IMG/VR virus record: IMGVR_UViG_3300025093_000027
Coordinates: 1-52,875 of that record
Length of the DNA stretch: 52,875 nt
From: a virus
Strand: one strand, 5' to 3'
The notes below the pieces were generated by a model. It saw only the letters and a program-made list of their open reading frames with translations, was not told where the DNA came from and ran no database searches. Below, piece by piece: positions 21,586-39,248 of this stretch (position 1 is its first letter; the number at the start of each line of letters is the position of its first letter). The translations under genes were made by a program, and so were the position numbers.

Positions 21586-23208
21586 CTAACTTCTTAGGGG
21601 TAAGACATTTTTTACTAAAAATCCCTTCTTTTCTTTTTGTCTCATTCCCCTAAACAACATCACCGCTTTTTCCTGTAATTTATTTTTATGCTTCTCATAA
21701 TCTTCAGAGAACATAACTACATTATCCAAATTGCAAGTAGAGTCACTAAGAGTAATAAACGCCATCTTCTTACCCTTAGATTCTCCTCGTTTAATAGTCC
21801 ATTCCCTAATACTTTTGAGTTCTGCGGCAATAGCGATACCATTAGTAGATTGGAATCCATCTAGGAACTCTTTACAAGTGCAGTTCGCGTGACTTGTATC
21901 ATATTCATCTACTTTAGAACATGTAAGAGCGACCCCTAAGTATTCCTGTTCATTTTTAGCTCTCCATGCAGGACTATCTTCTAAATTATACCCCGGATTT
22001 TCTAAACTATCTATCAGTCCATCAATAATCTCTACCCTGTCTCTTTTAAAGATAGGACGTTTTTTATCTGACCAGTCATTAGTAAGCAACATTTTATTTA
22101 GTGTTTCAAGTAATGTTTCCTCCATGTTCTTTTGGACCCATTCTATTTCTCTCTTGCTCAACTCTTTGTACTGTTCATAGATGTGCTTCATTTCTAATCT
22201 ATTAATGTAAAAGCAATCACAAGCACCAGACAGAATAAGTGCAAGCATAGAATCCTTTTTGATACAATGACCATACATCATCAAGCATTGATCAAAGTTC
22301 ATGTCATCTACATTTTTATTACCATTCTCTTTGATGCAACTAATAAGTTTATCATAAACAGAACTACCAACTTTCTTTACATTTGTCATGCCGAAGGTTG
22401 GACAATCCCCTACAAGTTGAAAGTCTTTTTGTAACTTCTTAATGTTTGGAGGTTGAACATGGATGTTCATTAGGCGAGCATTGTTCACCAGTTCATTAAT
22501 CTCTTCAAATGTATCTGGCTTGCCAATAGCATGTTTCAAATAAGAAGTAAAGAACTCATGAGGGAAATGTGCTTTAGCATAAGCAGTAAGATAACCATTA
22601 GTAGCATAAGCATAAGAGTGAGATTTGTTGAACGAGTATCTTTGTGATGCCTCAATCCACGAGAAGATTTCTGATGCTTCTTCTTCATTCACGATACCAT
22701 GCTCAATGGCTTTACTGATAAACTCGCCTTTGATTTTACCCATCAACTCTACATTCTTTTTACCAATAGCTTTACGAAGAACATCTGCTTCCTGCAAAGA
22801 GAAACCAGCAAGTTCTTTAGCAATTGCCATCGCTTGCTCTTGATAAACAAGGATACCTTGAGTAGGGGCAAGAATAGGTTCAAGGGCGGGATGCAGATAC
22901 TCCACATCCTCACGCCCATGCTTCCTATCAATATAATGGTTGGTAAGATTTTTACCTTTGATAAAACTCTCTGTACAACCGGGACGAATAATAGCAATCA
23001 AGTCAGATAGTTCATCAATGCTACGAGGTTGTACTTTCTCTGCATTAGACCCTTGGATTTCCAACTGGAACACACCTTTAGTATTACCCTCACAAATCAA
23101 GTCCCAAGTAGCAGAGCAGTCTTTTGGCAACTTCTCTACATCAGGATCAAAGATAATACGACCATTACTATCAGTTTCAAATGTACATCCACAGGGAAAA
23201 GTTCTCAT
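21586..23208 (-). CDS. dnaE: DNA polymerase III alpha subunit, C-terminal part (split dnaE)
   Basis: 540 residues containing the second half of a bacterial DnaE. After a short Cys-bearing N-terminus it continues with NTKGVFQLEIQG, LIAIIRPGCTESFIKG, LAPTQGILVYQEQAMAIAKE and YSFNKSHSYAYATNGYLTAY, all conserved fingers/palm blocks downstream of the third catalytic aspartate. Later come the helical little-finger region and an OB-like segment (KGKKMAFITLSDSTCNLDNV). It starts ATGA, overlapping the exonuclease stop. With the N-terminal part it totals about 1171 residues, close to a full bacterial DnaE, so nothing appears lost. No intein motifs occur at either end. Confidence 0.9.
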   Translation of the reverse strand: MRTFPCGCTFETDSNGRIIFDPDVEKLPKDCSATWDLICEGNTKGVFQLEIQGSNAEKVQPRSIDELSDLIAIIRPGCTESFIKGKNLTNHYIDRKHGREDVEYLHPALEPILAPTQGILVYQEQAMAIAKELAGFSLQEADVLRKAIGKKNVELMGKIKGEFISKAIEHGIVNEEEASEIFSWIEASQRYSFNKSHSYAYATNGYLTAYAKAHFPHEFFTSYLKHAIGKPDTFEEINELVNNARLMNIHVQPPNIKKLQKDFQLVGDCPTFGMTNVKKVGSSVYDKLISCIKENGNKNVDDMNFDQCLMMYGHCIKKDSMLALILSGACDCFYINRLEMKHIYEQYKELSKREIEWVQKNMEETLLETLNKMLLTNDWSDKKRPIFKRDRVEIIDGLIDSLENPGYNLEDSPAWRAKNEQEYLGVALTCSKVDEYDTSHANCTCKEFLDGFQSTNGIAIAAELKSIREWTIKRGESKGKKMAFITLSDSTCNLDNVVMFSEDYEKHKNKLQEKAVMLFRGMRQKEKKGFLVKNVLPLRS

Positions 23209-23882
23209 GCAAAACTTCCTTTAAACTTATCAACACTAACTTGACGACGAGCAAACTTCAAAAACCTAACCAAGATTTTAGCAGTATCAACAACATCAGA
23301 AATAGCACTATGGGCTTGACCATGAGATTGTAATCCAAAGAACTCTTTCAATGTATCCATCTTATAGTTTTCTGGTTCTGGCATATTCTCAAACCAGTAG
23401 GTAATGTAATGAAGTAAATCCATGTTGCCCATCTTGGCGAATGGATAATCCAACTTATGCTTATCACACATGTTACGAATAATGATGTCATCAAATCCAT
23501 CTACATTATAACCACTGTATGCTGGTTCTGTAAAGTAGATTCTTCTCATTGGATCTTTCTCAATGTGATACTTCTGCAAATAAGAACAGAAGTTTTTCAT
23601 AGCAACCTTTTGTGATTTACCTTTCTTCCAAGTACTTACAATGTCTTCAGAAGAACATCCTCTTGTTGAAGCGTGCCAATCAATAGTCTTCTGCACACCT
23701 GTTGTAAAATACTCATCCTTATCAATACCCGGAGGTTTAACTGTAACCTCAAAGGTATCATCCATTTTAATTTCCAAAGTTCTAGGATTAACTGGGACCG
23801 CTGCAATCTCTACTGGATTAGCAGTAGTAGGGTCAGGTCCATCAGTTTCCAAATCATAAACAATAATCCAACGATGATTCAT
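23205..23882 (-). CDS. DnaQ-type 3'-5' proofreading exonuclease (DEDDh)
   Basis: 225 residues. The DEDDh family signature is intact: motif I YDLETDGPDP gives D10 and E12; motif II lies in YSGYNVDGFDD (about residue 124); motif III reads HSAISDVVDTAKIL, with His and Asp spaced five apart (about residues 192-197). The enzyme removes misinserted nucleotides. It sits between the two halves of the split polymerase gene, with TAATG and ATGA overlaps on the two sides, so all three are translated as one coupled set. Confidence 0.9.
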   Translation of the reverse strand: MNHRWIIVYDLETDGPDPTTANPVEIAAVPVNPRTLEIKMDDTFEVTVKPPGIDKDEYFTTGVQKTIDWHASTRGCSSEDIVSTWKKGKSQKVAMKNFCSYLQKYHIEKDPMRRIYFTEPAYSGYNVDGFDDIIIRNMCDKHKLDYPFAKMGNMDLLHYITYWFENMPEPENYKMDTLKEFFGLQSHGQAHSAISDVVDTAKILVRFLKFARRQVSVDKFKGSFA

Positions 23883-25777
23883 TATTCAACTCCTGCTAAA
23901 ATGTCTGCAACGGACATAACTTTGTCCAACATTGTAATACCCAAAACGTCAATTTTCAATAGTCCAACTTCCTCACAACTTGGTCCTTCAAATCCAGCGA
24001 TGTAACCTTTATCATTTGCATCAGTAGATCTAACCATAGGACAGGTTTGTGAAATCTTGTATGGTGAAACAACAACACCAGCAGCATGTTTAGATTGGAT
24101 AATCTTAGTTCCTTCTAAACGAATCGCTTGTTTGAAGATCTCTGCTTTATCGCCAACCATCTCTCCTTCTTCATTAATTTGAACCCAATCTTTAAACCTA
24201 TTAGGATTGTTCTCAATGCACCATCTAATGATAGAAGAGGTTCCAAGTTCCTCTTTCATCTCTTGGAGTTCATCAGCAATCTTTGCTTCATCCAAGATGT
24301 GTTTAGTCATAGCATTTTGTTCTGCAAAAGAAATACCACCTACGGCGTGCATAACCCTTTTCAATGCAGAACGACCTTTTAGAGTTGTATAAGTAACGAT
24401 TTGAGCAACATTCTCTTCACCATACTTATTTCTAATGTATTCAATAACTTTAGGTCTTGCTTCCTTTGGAACATCAATATCAATATCCGGCCAACTAATT
24501 TTACCCGGAGAGTTACGACCTGCGTTATAAAATCTTTCAAAGAGTAGGTCTGATGGAATAGGATCAATCTGCGTGATATCAATCAGATAAGATACCATAC
24601 AACCAGCAGCACTACCACGACCGGGACCAGTAATGTATCCGTTCTCATGACAGAACTTAATAATGTCACGAACGATAAGAAAGTAACTGCTCAATCCACA
24701 AGACGTAAAAACTTCCAACTCATGATTGACTCTTTCACCATAAACTTGAAATTGTTCAGGGTCATTGTCCATACTAATATGAGCCATCTTCTTTTTCCAT
24801 CCATCACGGCACAACTTACGAAGATAATCTTCATCGCTCATGCCGCCGGGACATGGAAACTGTGGAGGATTAGGAGCAGATAGAATACTATAATCATCAC
24901 ACATGTCTGCAATTTTATTAGTATTCTCAATCTCCTCTGCTGTATGCCATTGTTTCATTTCTTCAAAAGAAGGAATATGAAAGTTGTCTGATTCAAAGAA
25001 ACATTGTAATCCAACACTATTACCTTGCTTGATGTCCATTTGGATTTGACCCAGAGTTTTCTTCAATGAAGTACATAAAAGAACTCTTTGATCAATCGCA
25101 TCTTCTCTACGAGCATAATGTGCATCTGGAGTAGCAACACATGGGATACCAGTAACTTTAGATACTTGACGCAAACAGTTAGCAATAGTTTTAGCTAGAG
25201 GGTTTCTCTGACTATCAATCATTTGAATCTCAATAAAGAAGTTACCTTCTCCATAAAGCTGTTGTAGATAGTTTGCCCATTCACAACCTTTCTGTAACCA
25301 ATCAGGATCAAGCCTTTCCTCGCTTTCATCCATCATTTTGTATTGAAGGATAGAGCCAAGATGACCACTAAATGTCACTAAGTTTTTACCACTAATAGCA
25401 AAACCAACATCTTGCATAGAAATTCTAGGTTTATGATAAAATCTATCTGGGTGATTTGAAAGAGCAACTAATCTTAAAATCTCTTTCCAACCTTCTAGAT
25501 TCTTTGCTAGAATAACTTGATGGAGAAGTTTCCTGTTGTCAGGATTCTTATCAGTTGACTCGCCAAAGCAGAAATAAAACTCGCAACCTAAGATAGGTTT
25601 GAGTCCATTGTTTTTCATTGTTTTAACAAAATCAACAGCACCACTAACTGTGCCATGATCTGTCAAGGCACAAGCTGTAGAACCAATCTCTTTGATGCGA
25701 GATGCAATCTGTGAAGTCTTTGAAAGTCCATCGAGCAAACTATATTCAGAATGGACATGTAGTGGCGTATAACTCAT
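23882..25777 (-). CDS. dnaE: DNA polymerase III alpha subunit, N-terminal part (PHP plus palm)
   Basis: 631 residues. An N-terminal PHP domain is visible (LHVHSEYSLLDGLSK, ALTDHGTVSGAV, TPDAHYARRED) with its metal-binding His and Asp residues present. The polymerase core follows: TGPGRGSAAGCMVSYLIDIT, then WPDIDIDVPKE near residue 430 with two catalytic aspartates, and KIDVLGITMLDK near the end with the third. The protein stops about 16 residues past that site, and the rest of the enzyme is encoded after the exonuclease gene. The fork polymerase must be assembled from two chains. Confidence 0.9.
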   Translation of the reverse strand: MSYTPLHVHSEYSLLDGLSKTSQIASRIKEIGSTACALTDHGTVSGAVDFVKTMKNNGLKPILGCEFYFCFGESTDKNPDNRKLLHQVILAKNLEGWKEILRLVALSNHPDRFYHKPRISMQDVGFAISGKNLVTFSGHLGSILQYKMMDESEERLDPDWLQKGCEWANYLQQLYGEGNFFIEIQMIDSQRNPLAKTIANCLRQVSKVTGIPCVATPDAHYARREDAIDQRVLLCTSLKKTLGQIQMDIKQGNSVGLQCFFESDNFHIPSFEEMKQWHTAEEIENTNKIADMCDDYSILSAPNPPQFPCPGGMSDEDYLRKLCRDGWKKKMAHISMDNDPEQFQVYGERVNHELEVFTSCGLSSYFLIVRDIIKFCHENGYITGPGRGSAAGCMVSYLIDITQIDPIPSDLLFERFYNAGRNSPGKISWPDIDIDVPKEARPKVIEYIRNKYGEENVAQIVTYTTLKGRSALKRVMHAVGGISFAEQNAMTKHILDEAKIADELQEMKEELGTSSIIRWCIENNPNRFKDWVQINEEGEMVGDKAEIFKQAIRLEGTKIIQSKHAAGVVVSPYKISQTCPMVRSTDANDKGYIAGFEGPSCEEVGLLKIDVLGITMLDKVMSVADILAGVE

Positions 25778-35431: not shown

Positions 35432-36493
35432 TCACAGACTCATATCATCAAAACTTAAATCATCTAAATCATTTTTAGATGCACCAATTTTATAAGATGT
35501 AATCTCGCTCTCTTGAGGAGCAACTTGGACTGCTTCACTATTCATAAATGCATCTGACCAACCCTTGATAGGATTCTTCTTTGCATTATAAATCTTGTCA
35601 AATCCAAGTGCGTCAAGACGAGAGTCAACTAACCACTCAATGTAACCATGTAGAGTAGTTTCATTCAAACCAATCAATGATCCATCCTTAAATAGGTAAG
35701 ATGCCCATTCCTTTTCCTCATTTGCTGCTCTCTCAAACATACCAATAACATCATCGTGACACTTCTTAATAACTTCTTGGAACCCTTCAGATTTTTCTTC
35801 TTTTAGGATGTTCAAGATAGTTTGAGTGTTGTAAAGATGCACTGCCTCATCCCTCTTGATTAGACGAATGATGTCCGCATTACCAATCATCTTTTTATTC
35901 TTTGCAAAAGAGAAAGAACAAATAAATGAAACATAAAAGCGAACCGCTTCTAGGATATTGATACTAATCAAGGTCATATAAAGTTGCTCTTTTACATCCT
36001 TATATGTGCCATATCCTAGCTTATTGTAATCTTCAATAGCACTTTCGGCTCTCTTGAGGATCTCTTTATCTTCTAATGTAGAATCAAATACAGCACTTGG
36101 GTCTGCATATACATTTTTAATGATGTAACTGTATGATGTGCTATGAATTTGCTCAAAGAAACCCCATACATTTAGACATGCTTCCAGTTCAGGATTACTA
36201 ACGTATTCAAGCAGTGTAGGAACACCACGGCAGATAACACTGTCAAGCATCGTTTGATACTTTAAGTTAGAAGTAAAAATAAACTTCTCATTATCTGTTA
36301 GTGTTTGGAAATCTGCTCTATCTTTTTTAAGCTCAATCTCTTCTGGTCGCCAAAAGAATTCTACTTGTTTATTGTATAGATCCCAGAAAATTGGATATTT
36401 AAACCTATCATATCTTTGCAAACCTAAAGGCTCACCTAGAAACAAAGGTTGAGTTGTAGTATCTACGTTTTTTTTATTTAATACAGTCATCAT
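35432..36493 (-). CDS. nrdB: Ribonucleotide reductase class Ia, beta subunit
   Basis: 353 residues from the ATG at 36493, which overlaps the nrdA stop as ATGATGA; the longer frame needs a TTG. The radical site is intact: FFEQIHSTSYSYII gives the Glu/His ligands and the tyrosyl radical Tyr; LIKRDEAVHLYNTQ supplies the second Glu-His pair. It houses the diferric-tyrosyl cofactor and pairs with NrdA to make dNDPs. Confidence 0.93.
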   Translation of the reverse strand: MMTVLNKKNVDTTTQPLFLGEPLGLQRYDRFKYPIFWDLYNKQVEFFWRPEEIELKKDRADFQTLTDNEKFIFTSNLKYQTMLDSVICRGVPTLLEYVSNPELEACLNVWGFFEQIHSTSYSYIIKNVYADPSAVFDSTLEDKEILKRAESAIEDYNKLGYGTYKDVKEQLYMTLISINILEAVRFYVSFICSFSFAKNKKMIGNADIIRLIKRDEAVHLYNTQTILNILKEEKSEGFQEVIKKCHDDVIGMFERAANEEKEWASYLFKDGSLIGLNETTLHGYIEWLVDSRLDALGFDKIYNAKKNPIKGWSDAFMNSEAVQVAPQESEITSYKIGASKNDLDDLSFDDMSL

Positions 36494-38727
36494 ACCGAGC
36501 AACCTCCACCATCACAACCACTAGTAGCATCAACATCACCATCTGGACTATTTGCGTAATACAAAGTTTTTACTCCCACCTTGTAAGCATAAACTAAATC
36601 TTTAATAATAACACTCAATGGAATACTACCACCCTCATGATGAGCATAGTTATAATAACTATTAGTTGAAATAGACATGTCTAACCATTTCTGTAAAGTT
36701 GCAATCATGTCCATCAAAGGTTTATTGGTCTGGAAATCAAATGCCAGATCGTAGTATTTTCTATTTTTATGGAAAGAAGGAACTAACTGCTTTAACATTC
36801 CATTCTTTGCTTTTTTGTATGTCAATAATCTTCTAACTGGTTCAACTCCATTAGTACTATTCTGAATGACACTTGATGATTCACAAGGCATTATAGCACT
36901 AACAGTAGAGTTTTTCAACCCATGCTCCTTGATTCTTTTCTTTAAACCCTTCCAATCCATAGAGGGTTTTCTTTTTACAATCTTTTTTGCATTATCGTTT
37001 GCCCAATCATAAGGACATAATCCTTTGGCATATTTTGTCTCATCAAACTTTGGACAAGCACCACTTTCTTCTGCCATCTTACAAGAAGCATCAAGTAAAT
37101 AATACTGTATCTTCTCCATCCATTCATCAACAACTTCTAAACTTTCTGGAGCATAGTAAGACAGTTTATTCTTCGCCAAGAATCCTGCAAGATTAGTAAT
37201 ACCAACTCCTAATGATCGACGATTGAGAGTAAAAGTTTCTCCTGCCTTAATAGGATAATCCTGATAATCAATCAGTGCATTGAGCAATCTAATAGTAATC
37301 TCACAAGCCTTTTGCAACTCATCATCATTATTAATCTCAATCAAGTTAATAGCAGATAAGATACAAATACCAATCTCTGCTTCTGGGTCATCAATGTGAT
37401 TTAATGGCTTAGTTGGATGCGTAATCTCTACACAAAGATTTGTCATCTTTACATCTACATCCCAGCTACCATTTTGATTGCAATGGTCTACATTCATCGC
37501 ATAGATACGACCAGTCTCTAATCTTTCTCTAGCGAACAGTTCTGCGAGCTTCCTCGCTTTGATTTTCTTACTAAACTGTAGATTGCTACGAGACTCGTAT
37601 TCCAAATATAAATCATCAAACTCTTCATGACCGAAAGCATCATACAAACCTTCACATTCTGCCGGAGACAGCAAAGTAATCTCTTCATCCTTAATCAATC
37701 GTTCATAAAATACCTTGGAAAACTGAATGCAATAATCAAGCTTCCTAACCCTGTTATCATCAGTCCCACCATTATTTTTCAACACCATTACATCTTCGAT
37801 TTCATAGTGCCAAAAGGGGATATTCACAGTAGCACTACCACCACGAATACCATTCTGACTTGTAGCCTTTACTGCCGACTCAAACAGTTTTAAGTATGGA
37901 ATCACTCCAGTGTGAATAACCTCACCCCCTCGAATAGGGGAGTTGAGAGGTCTAATCCTACCAAAGTTCAAACCAATACCAGCACGACGAGCAGTATACT
38001 TAGCAACACTAGCAACAGAAGAAGTGATACTGTCTAAACTATCTCCTACATCAACAAGAACGCAAGATGCAAACTGACGAATCTTAGTTCTAACTCCTGC
38101 CATAACTGGAGTTGGCAAGTTGATTTTAAATGTAGAGAAGTAATCATAAGCCTCTTTTACTCTTCTAATCCTGTCATCACCATAATCCATAAACAAGACC
38201 ATAGCGATTAGCATATAAGCGAATTGAGGACTCTCATAAAGTACTCCAGTATTCCTATTCTTCAAGAGATACTTATCAACCATCTGCTGCAAACCAGAAT
38301 AAGTAAATAAATAATCTCTATCATGTTTAATGTATTCGCCAAGCTTATTAATCTCTTCTTTAGTATAAGCTGACTTTACAGATGGATCATACAAGTCTAA
38401 CTTTACTAAATCTTTAATGTGATCAAACAAACGAGGAGGATTATAACCGCCCCATACATCTTTACGAAGTTTAAAGTTAAGAAGTTTCGCCGCAACGAAC
38501 TGATAGTTAGGTTCCTCTTCAGAGATCAAATCATTTGCAGAGTCGATAAGGATATCATGAATCTCTGTAGACGGGATCTTGTCATGTAGGGCGAGTTCAG
38601 CGTTCAGTTCAATGTCAGATAAACTAACTCCATTTACTCCCTTACATGCCCAATCCACAACCTGATGGATTTTTTCAACATTAAACTCTTCTAATCTTCC
38701 ATTACGCTTCTTAACTCTTATATTCAT
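36490..38727 (-). CDS. nrdA: Ribonucleotide reductase class Ia, alpha subunit
   Basis: 745 residues. An N-terminal ATP-cone (MNIRVKKRNGRLEEFNVEKI, residues 1-95) indicates allosteric activity control. Conserved catalytic blocks are present: NLCVEITHPTKPL, TLNRRSLGVGITNLA and AIMPCESSSVIQNSTNG, and the C-terminal redox pair is in GCDGGGCSV. A GAGGAAA ribosome site lies 6 nt before the ATG. It catalyses NDP to dNDP. It follows directly on a structured leader and a terminator, so its expression is likely regulated. Confidence 0.95.
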   Translation of the reverse strand: MNIRVKKRNGRLEEFNVEKIHQVVDWACKGVNGVSLSDIELNAELALHDKIPSTEIHDILIDSANDLISEEEPNYQFVAAKLLNFKLRKDVWGGYNPPRLFDHIKDLVKLDLYDPSVKSAYTKEEINKLGEYIKHDRDYLFTYSGLQQMVDKYLLKNRNTGVLYESPQFAYMLIAMVLFMDYGDDRIRRVKEAYDYFSTFKINLPTPVMAGVRTKIRQFASCVLVDVGDSLDSITSSVASVAKYTARRAGIGLNFGRIRPLNSPIRGGEVIHTGVIPYLKLFESAVKATSQNGIRGGSATVNIPFWHYEIEDVMVLKNNGGTDDNRVRKLDYCIQFSKVFYERLIKDEEITLLSPAECEGLYDAFGHEEFDDLYLEYESRSNLQFSKKIKARKLAELFARERLETGRIYAMNVDHCNQNGSWDVDVKMTNLCVEITHPTKPLNHIDDPEAEIGICILSAINLIEINNDDELQKACEITIRLLNALIDYQDYPIKAGETFTLNRRSLGVGITNLAGFLAKNKLSYYAPESLEVVDEWMEKIQYYLLDASCKMAEESGACPKFDETKYAKGLCPYDWANDNAKKIVKRKPSMDWKGLKKRIKEHGLKNSTVSAIMPCESSSVIQNSTNGVEPVRRLLTYKKAKNGMLKQLVPSFHKNRKYYDLAFDFQTNKPLMDMIATLQKWLDMSISTNSYYNYAHHEGGSIPLSVIIKDLVYAYKVGVKTLYYANSPDGDVDATSGCDGGGCSV

Positions 38728-38747: not shown

Positions 38748-38781
38748 AAAAAAACCCGTCAAAGATAAAACTTCAACGGGT
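38748..38781 (-). terminator. Rho-independent terminator 20 nt before nrdA
   Basis: Reading the - strand: stem CCCGTTGAAG / CTTTGACGGG (10 bp, two G-T wobbles, extendable by one A-T), loop TTTTAT, then seven T. It ends about 20 nt before the nrdA start codon, leaving room only for the ribosome site. With the structured RNA immediately upstream it may act as an attenuator. Confidence 0.85.
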
Positions 38782-38791
38782 GTAATTTTCA

Positions 38792-38949
38792 TAAGCGACA
38801 CAGGGTATGTTGTTAGTGTTGAACATATGTCAATTACTTTACTTTAAAATATACAACAAGGTTAAATTGTATGTTCTAAACTAACATCGAGTATTTACTG
38901 GAAAGTGTCGCTTTAGCTCATAAATAGCGTCTTTATGCTCCAGTAAATA
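38792..38949 (-). ncRNA. Structured non-coding RNA / nrdA leader with pseudoknot potential
   Basis: In this gene-free stretch four inverted repeats stack in order. P1: perfect 11-bp arms 38892-38902 and 38939-38949. Within its loop a short hairpin (38916-38924 with 38932-38938) and the sequence AAGCGACAC in complement (38905-38913). P3: 7+7 bp arms (38811-38817 with 38880-38886; 38821-38827 with 38870-38876) around a small hairpin (38851-38856 with 38867-38872). The P1-loop sequence pairs 9 of 9 with 38793-38801, after P3, which makes an H-type pseudoknot. A terminator follows after about 10 nt. This looks like a riboswitch-style aptamer plus expression platform, or a discrete small RNA. No known family was recognised. 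Confidence 0.6.
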
Positions 38950-38976
38950 ATTATACACCCAGAAATTACACTTCAA
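38950..38976 (-). promoter_or_regulatory. Candidate sigma70 promoter for the nrdA leader
   Basis: TATAAT (38950-38955) with TTGAAG (38971-38976) 15 bases upstream on the - strand. The -10 is perfect; the -35 matches 4 of 6 and the spacing is short. Transcription would begin about base 38944, inside the first arm of P1, which would shorten that stem. So either the start is further upstream or P1 only forms in read-through RNA. Confidence 0.4.
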
Positions 38977-38981
38977 ATTTT

Positions 38982-39188
38982 TTACGAGTATTTTTTCATT
39001 TTTTTATAGACACAACTACAGAATTGCAGATACTTATCAGTTGGTCTTTGCTTATCAATCATATCTAATAAATAGTATCCTCTTCCATTACAGTCCTTGC
39101 ATTTTTTCTTTGCATAAATCTTAGCAGTTTCTATTTGATTTTCCATCTCTGCTTGACGAGCGATTTCATCTCTTTCAATTTGATCCAT
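38982..39188 (-). CDS. Small DnaJ-type zinc-finger protein
   Basis: 68 residues, first half a charged helix, second half CKDCNGRGYYLLD and CSCVYKKMKK. The CxxCxGxGY pattern resembles one repeat of the DnaJ central zinc finger. It stands alone between a terminator and the nrdA leader. Role unknown, perhaps a folding accessory. Confidence 0.65.
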   Translation of the reverse strand: MDQIERDEIARQAEMENQIETAKIYAKKKCKDCNGRGYYLLDMIDKQRPTDKYLQFCSCVYKKMKKYS

Positions 39189-39201: not shown

Positions 39202-39248
39202 AAAAAAACCGTGAACCCAATGATAAATTATACCACCGAGTCCACGGT
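39202..39248 (-). terminator. Rho-independent terminator before the 68-residue gene
   Basis: - strand stem ACCGTGGACTC / GGGTTCACGGT (11 bp with two wobbles) followed by seven T, ending about 13 nt before the next ATG. The loop contains TATAAT (39227-39232) but no acceptable -35 box is visible, so a promoter is not claimed. Confidence 0.8.

Follow-up and report, generated by a model that had tools for sequence, protein, structure and literature searches.

Several described systems resemble, each in part, the phage RNA considered here. The preQ1-II and SAM-II elements are transcription-attenuating riboswitches with pseudoknot aptamers. In bacteria, ribonucleotide reductase (RNR) genes are controlled by AdoCbl and 2′-deoxyguanosine (2′-dG) riboswitches. 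The late leader of phage lambda (pR′-tR′, 6S RNA) follows the order promoter, ~200-nt transcript, terminator and genes, with Q-dependent antitermination.

A 2′-dG-sensing element is the subject of PMC12268651. For lambda, the Q-engaging signal is a DNA site in the late promoter (PMC6606751). The put RNA of phage HK022 suppresses termination over early phage genes (PMC9378689). Structured RNAs from phage genomes have also been proposed as regulators of metabolic genes, as with the manA and wcaG motifs, which come from marine metagenomes and cyanophages (PMC2864571).

Our analysis concerns a structured RNA directly upstream of nrdA in a phage record of 52,875 nucleotides (52.9 kb), the whole of which is referred to as the window. 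This record also encodes a DNA polymerase, a DnaB-like helicase, a RecA-like protein and ThyX. The DNA polymerase consists of two ORFs split by a 225-aa RNase_T exonuclease-like ORF (21586-25777, minus strand).

Like preQ1-II and SAM-II, the phage RNA forms an H-type pseudoknot with conserved loop nucleotides in the leader of a metabolic gene, here followed by a terminator. It differs from them as a phage RNA with no Rfam match and no demonstrable antiterminator, found so far only in phages. With the AdoCbl and 2′-dG riboswitches it shares a position as leader RNA upstream of RNR genes, but these are functional analogues only, unrelated to it in fold and sequence (no Rfam match), and the phage RNA serves B12-dependent and B12-independent RNRs alike. 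The lambda late leader, also a functional analogue only, has the same order of promoter, ~200-nt transcript, terminator and genes; its Q-engaging signal is a DNA site (PMC6606751), whereas in the RNR leader an RNA fold is conserved by covariation. HK022 put is likewise a phage RNA made just past its promoter, and it acts on downstream terminators (PMC9378689); its structure is different, and in the RNR leader, which fits a put-type RNA in position, the terminator comes directly after the RNA. It too is a functional analogue only. The manA and wcaG RNAs are other motifs with other gene associations, and the paper reporting them among 104 motifs makes no mention of ribonucleotide reductase (PMC2864571).

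Architecture and conservation of the RNA

The RNA region is bounded on the minus strand by the end of a 68-aa ORF at 38982 and the nrdA start at 38727. Its features and neighbours are as follows.

38982 to 39188, minus strand: upstream gene for a 68-aa CxxC protein, syntenic in RNA-plus phages
38950 to 38959, minus strand: GGTGTATAAT, -10-like promoter element, 5 nt upstream of P1
38748 to 38944, minus strand: structured RNA including terminator and U-tract, ~197 nt (13 distinct homologues in 21 viral contigs)
38939 to 38944, minus strand: P1 5′ strand, ACUGGA (78/78 standard pairs, 13 sequences)
38916 to 38928, minus strand: P2 hairpin, GCU/AGC, within the P1 loop (39/39 standard pairs)
38905 to 38913, minus strand: pseudoknot strand 1, AAGCGACAC (116/117 standard pairs, 13 sequences)
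38897 to 38902, minus strand: P1 3′ strand, UCCAGU, pairing with 38939 to 38944
38811 to 38886, minus strand: P3 hairpin, between P1 and pseudoknot strand 2 (13/13)
38793 to 38801, minus strand: pseudoknot strand 2, GUGUCGCUU, partner of 38905 to 38913
38748 to 38781, minus strand: intrinsic terminator, 11-bp stem (38781-38754) and U-tract (same place in 13/13)
36490 to 38727, minus strand: nrdA, class Ia RNR large subunit, presumed target (NCBIfam NF006578, 915 bits, cut-off 813; also Pfam)
35432 to 36502, minus strand: nrdB, small subunit, downstream in the same operon (NCBIfam NF006576, 392 bits, cut-off 346)

The elements follow one another as P1, P2, P3, a 9-bp pseudoknot joining the P1 loop to a segment past P3, and the intrinsic terminator. 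The topology is that of an H-type pseudoknot, with P1 and the pseudoknot helix as its stems and P2 and P3 in its loops.

All the elements that an earlier note on this DNA had named upstream of nrdA are present between 38944 and 38748, and the conserved 3-bp helix P2, missing from that list, is added. The perfect 11-bp first helix that it described contracts to the conserved 6-bp core of P1; its five outer A-U pairs are partly paired in relatives (44/65 cells) and overlap the -10/discriminator region. Its second helix with an inner helix is P3 (38886-38811), for which a hairpin is found at the equivalent place in every sequence, and its crossing 9/9 pairing, 38913-38905 with 38801-38793, is kept across the 13 sequences. 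The strong terminator that it placed after the fold begins 11 nt past the pseudoknot strand. The covariation in relatives to which it had looked was found, as compensatory changes among 13 distinct homologues.

Each of the six P1 pairs varies among the 13 sequences and pairing is never lost, the variants including GCUGGA/UCCAGC, GCCAGA/UCUGGC and GUCGAG/CUCGAC. The third pair of P2 is U-A, G-C or U-G, and two pseudoknot positions are compensated, C-G becoming U-A in L023 and G-C becoming A-U in L246/L250. Before these pairs were counted, P1, P2 and the pseudoknot had been positioned manually, sequence by sequence; P3 and the terminator were folded or scanned. P3 starts 9-14 nt past P1 in all 13 sequences and has 8-17 outer pairs made of largely different bases; its energy alone is not always significant (z from -0.5 to -3.3 per sequence). 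The terminator stem, too, differs in sequence from homologue to homologue while keeping its position. In L004 and L005 the terminator loop carries an insertion of ~35 nt relative to the window, and the stem is kept with different bases.

Conservation extends to unpaired nucleotides. P2 is flanked by AUAAAGA on its 5′ side (AUUAAG in two sequences) and by UAAAG, and a conserved unpaired U(A) precedes the pseudoknot strand. The 9/9 length of the pseudoknot in the window is matched by 1/1000 shuffles of the downstream sequence; across the homologues a nine-base pairing arises by chance in 0-6/1000 shuffles per sequence, and the 7 bp of L004 in 12/1000. Compared with dinucleotide shuffles, the region has a folding-energy z of -3.6, which becomes -3.3 when the terminator is left off the RNA. 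We judge the comparative evidence to be much stronger than the folding energy.

Homologues and linkage to RNR genes

Thirteen distinct versions of the RNA were found in 21 viral contigs, eight before class Ia nrdA (the window, L001, L002, L004, L085, L023, L031 and L051) and five before class II nrdJ (L245, L246, L248, L250 and L253). L001, L002 and L004, with NrdA identities of 90-95%, and L085 carry the RNA in the equivalent position. In L023, L031 and L051 (63-65% NrdA identity) it was found upstream of nrdA by a descriptor (ATAAAGA, gap, TAAAG) in a scan of 80 loci. A degenerate pattern led to L225/L245; there the gene that follows the RNA encodes 846 aa and was recognised as class II nrdJ (NCBIfam TIGR02504, 463 bits, cut-off 400); L246, L248, L250 and L253 were reached through relatives of this NrdJ.

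A first covariance model scored its eight building members at 51-69 bits and the later nrdJ members at 19-38 bits, with noise at or below ~18 bits. In a second model, built from 12 sequences, members reach ~50-60 bits and the best non-member 19.5; the cmsearch score of the window copy is 56.9 bits. Since building sequences match by construction, such scores do not by themselves amount to proof. Independent evidence comes from the pseudoknot, P3 and the terminator, none of which is contained in the covariance models.

Rfam 15 gave no match above the gathering threshold for the window and seven homologue loci, and a permissive Rfam search returned sub-threshold chance matches only. A DNA similarity search of annotated phage records found no homologue. 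A looser loop pattern hit 14 further contigs and another pattern four more, all chance matches. A scan of genome contigs yielded 14 pattern matches, none with the flanking structure, and thus no evidence of a host-encoded version. The RNA is absent from two huge-phage records with close NrdJ relatives.

Each of the 16 RNA-plus records searched whole (up to 131 kb) holds one copy, adjoining the RNR gene, and none away from it; in RNA-less relatives of up to 173 kb, no copy above noise was found anywhere. In the NrdA tree, RNA-plus rows are scattered among RNA-less ones, with at least three presence changes on well-supported branches, and L051 clusters with phages that lack the RNA. Nearly all RNA-plus loci share three genes upstream of the RNA, which in the window encode 200, 110 and 68 aa, and a dCMP deaminase gene lies directly upstream in L023, L031, L051, L248 and L253. 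In L225, the interval from the CxxC ORF to the RNA has ~400 nt, mostly non-coding, ahead of an apparent dCMP deaminase C-terminal end; this gene looks broken, as by an intron-like insertion.

The scattered tree and the common upstream genes indicate that RNR genes have been exchanged beneath one RNA. Because RNRs of different origin and class thus lie below one RNA and terminator that keep their position, we infer action in cis on the RNR gene. This argument is somewhat weakened by the upstream synteny common to RNA-plus phages, as part of the RNR linkage could be plain synteny.

Probable promoter and transcript start

The -10-like element GGTGTATA is invariant in 13/13 sequences, with 5-7 nt separating the end of its hexamer from the P1 core, so that P1 should form the 5′ end of the transcript. 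In several RNA-less relatives, nrdA promoters have the related (G)GTGTATAAT as their -10. The RNA has a conserved -10-like element at its 5′ end and a terminator at its 3′ end; -35 elements are weak or absent, and the promoter is accordingly deduced mainly from the conserved -10 and its spacing. In the 100 nt that precede the RNR start, a sigma-70-like promoter is present at 0/12 RNA-plus vs 44/84 RNA-less loci, which are mutually related and do not amount to 96 independent cases.

Two further elements lie upstream. In L023, L031, L245, L248 and L253, a near-perfect dyad (AAAAGTTGACAGCAACTTTT and variants) is located ~27 nt before the -10 element and centred near -42 from the presumed start, a typical activator-site position; the clade of the window itself did not show it. 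At 39208-39248 on the minus strand of the window, upstream of the 68-aa ORF, the stem-loop of a strong terminator-like hairpin (18 pairs) contains an extended -10-like element, TGGTATAAT, and L085 is similar.

Proposed mechanism and alternatives

Taken together, the RNA is likely to be a cis-acting 5′ leader of the phage RNR transcript that gates transcription at the terminator. It is probably a built-in switch for the RNR gene, because it stays although the type of enzyme has been replaced. Transcription would start at the promoter overlapping GGTGTATAAT, placing P1 at the very 5′ end. The first ~165 nt, as the covariation shows, fold into the H-type pseudoknot with the P2 hairpin in one loop and P3 in another, before RNA polymerase reaches the intrinsic terminator, visible in the sequence 20-45 nt before the RNR start codon. 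As no recognisable promoter lies past the terminator, RNR must come from read-through, the dose of which is most plausibly set by the pseudoknot.

The trigger may be a small molecule from nucleotide metabolism, a protein of the phage or the host, or the RNA itself acting directly on polymerase. A pseudoknot acting on polymerase, one recruiting a protein and one with a ligand bound close to the terminator would agree equally well with the findings. B12 is an unlikely trigger, since the class Ia enzyme does not use it, and a B12 riboswitch was rejected given the class Ia targets and the lack of an Rfam match.

Phage RNR may be gated by read-through in more cases than those with the pseudoknot RNA. 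A plain terminator lies 19-40 nt before the nrdA start in nine RNA-less loci (L006, L009, L017, L026, L044, L047, L062, L063 and L064), several of which have an upstream promoter and short leader.

One special case of the cis leader would be a classical transcription-attenuating riboswitch, as the earlier note had proposed, in which a metabolite aptamer competes with the terminator by pairing. The order of promoter, conserved pseudoknot, terminator and nucleotide-metabolism gene bears out that layout, and the conserved loop nucleotides are in keeping with it. The pairing step is where the proposal falters: for the terminator 5′ arm no upstream partner exceeds chance in the 13 sequences (13-88/100 upstream shuffles are as good), so a simple base-pair switch is not evident, and in the window the pseudoknot strand and the terminator arm do not overlap but lie 11 nt apart. 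We therefore regard this form as rather unlikely. A candidate GGUGUA/UACACC antiterminator in the window was rejected, its pairing not being kept in L023, L031 and L051; GGTGTA is better explained as promoter.

A second special case, which we hold to be similarly doubtful, is polymerase-directed antitermination by the nascent RNA, alone or with a phage protein. It makes a base-pair switch unnecessary in an RNA that would begin at its promoter with a terminator directly after, and HK022 put offers the precedent of a phage RNA acting alone (PMC9378689). Against it, the H-type pseudoknot and hairpin are not known as the put fold, and no phage antiterminator was identified.

Outside the cis-leader reading, an independent ~200-nt small RNA, the alternative offered in the earlier note, appears unlikely. 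Such an RNA would act in trans from a promoter and terminator of its own and only happen to lie before the RNR gene, with RNR expressed by general late-infection read-through. It would account for the conserved -10-like element right before P1, the strong terminator at the end, the lack of antiterminator pairing above chance, and the unpaired AUAAAGA and UAAAG, which could contact a target or protein. However, no record, of up to 131 kb, has a copy that is not beside an RNR gene, the RNA is kept at the junction despite changes of RNR class and nrdA lineage, and the RNR promoter that many relatives possess is missing from RNA-plus loci; the strict linkage and the missing promoter make this explanation the less likely one.

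A leader-peptide attenuator, using a short ORF that starts at AUGAAAAUUAC and runs through the terminator to overlap the nrdA start, is highly improbable and was rejected: a 22-23-codon ORF (MKITPVEV..) whose UGA overlaps the nrdA AUG does occur in the window, L001, L002 and L085, but its start codon is not conserved (AUG is absent in L004, L051, L245, L246, L248 and L250), it has no ribosome-binding site, and the covariation pattern is that of RNA helices. The 22-codon ORF of the window (MKITPVEVLSLTGFFIYYEETE; 38791-38724, minus strand, through the terminator) is open in close relatives only.

Implications

Few metabolic genes are as common in phages as that for ribonucleotide reductase. In the literature covered, mainly open-access papers, no description of this RNA or of any RNA controlling phage RNR was found; a prior description elsewhere is possible. 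The family is small and defined, which makes it directly amenable to experiment. Tentatively, it may represent a novel class of regulatory RNA in phages, one that responds to the infected cell's nucleotide state, or to a phage factor, by releasing RNR expression at the terminator whatever the RNR class. That selection has kept one fold before two RNR classes with different cofactors suggests that the reaction, and not one particular enzyme, is under control.
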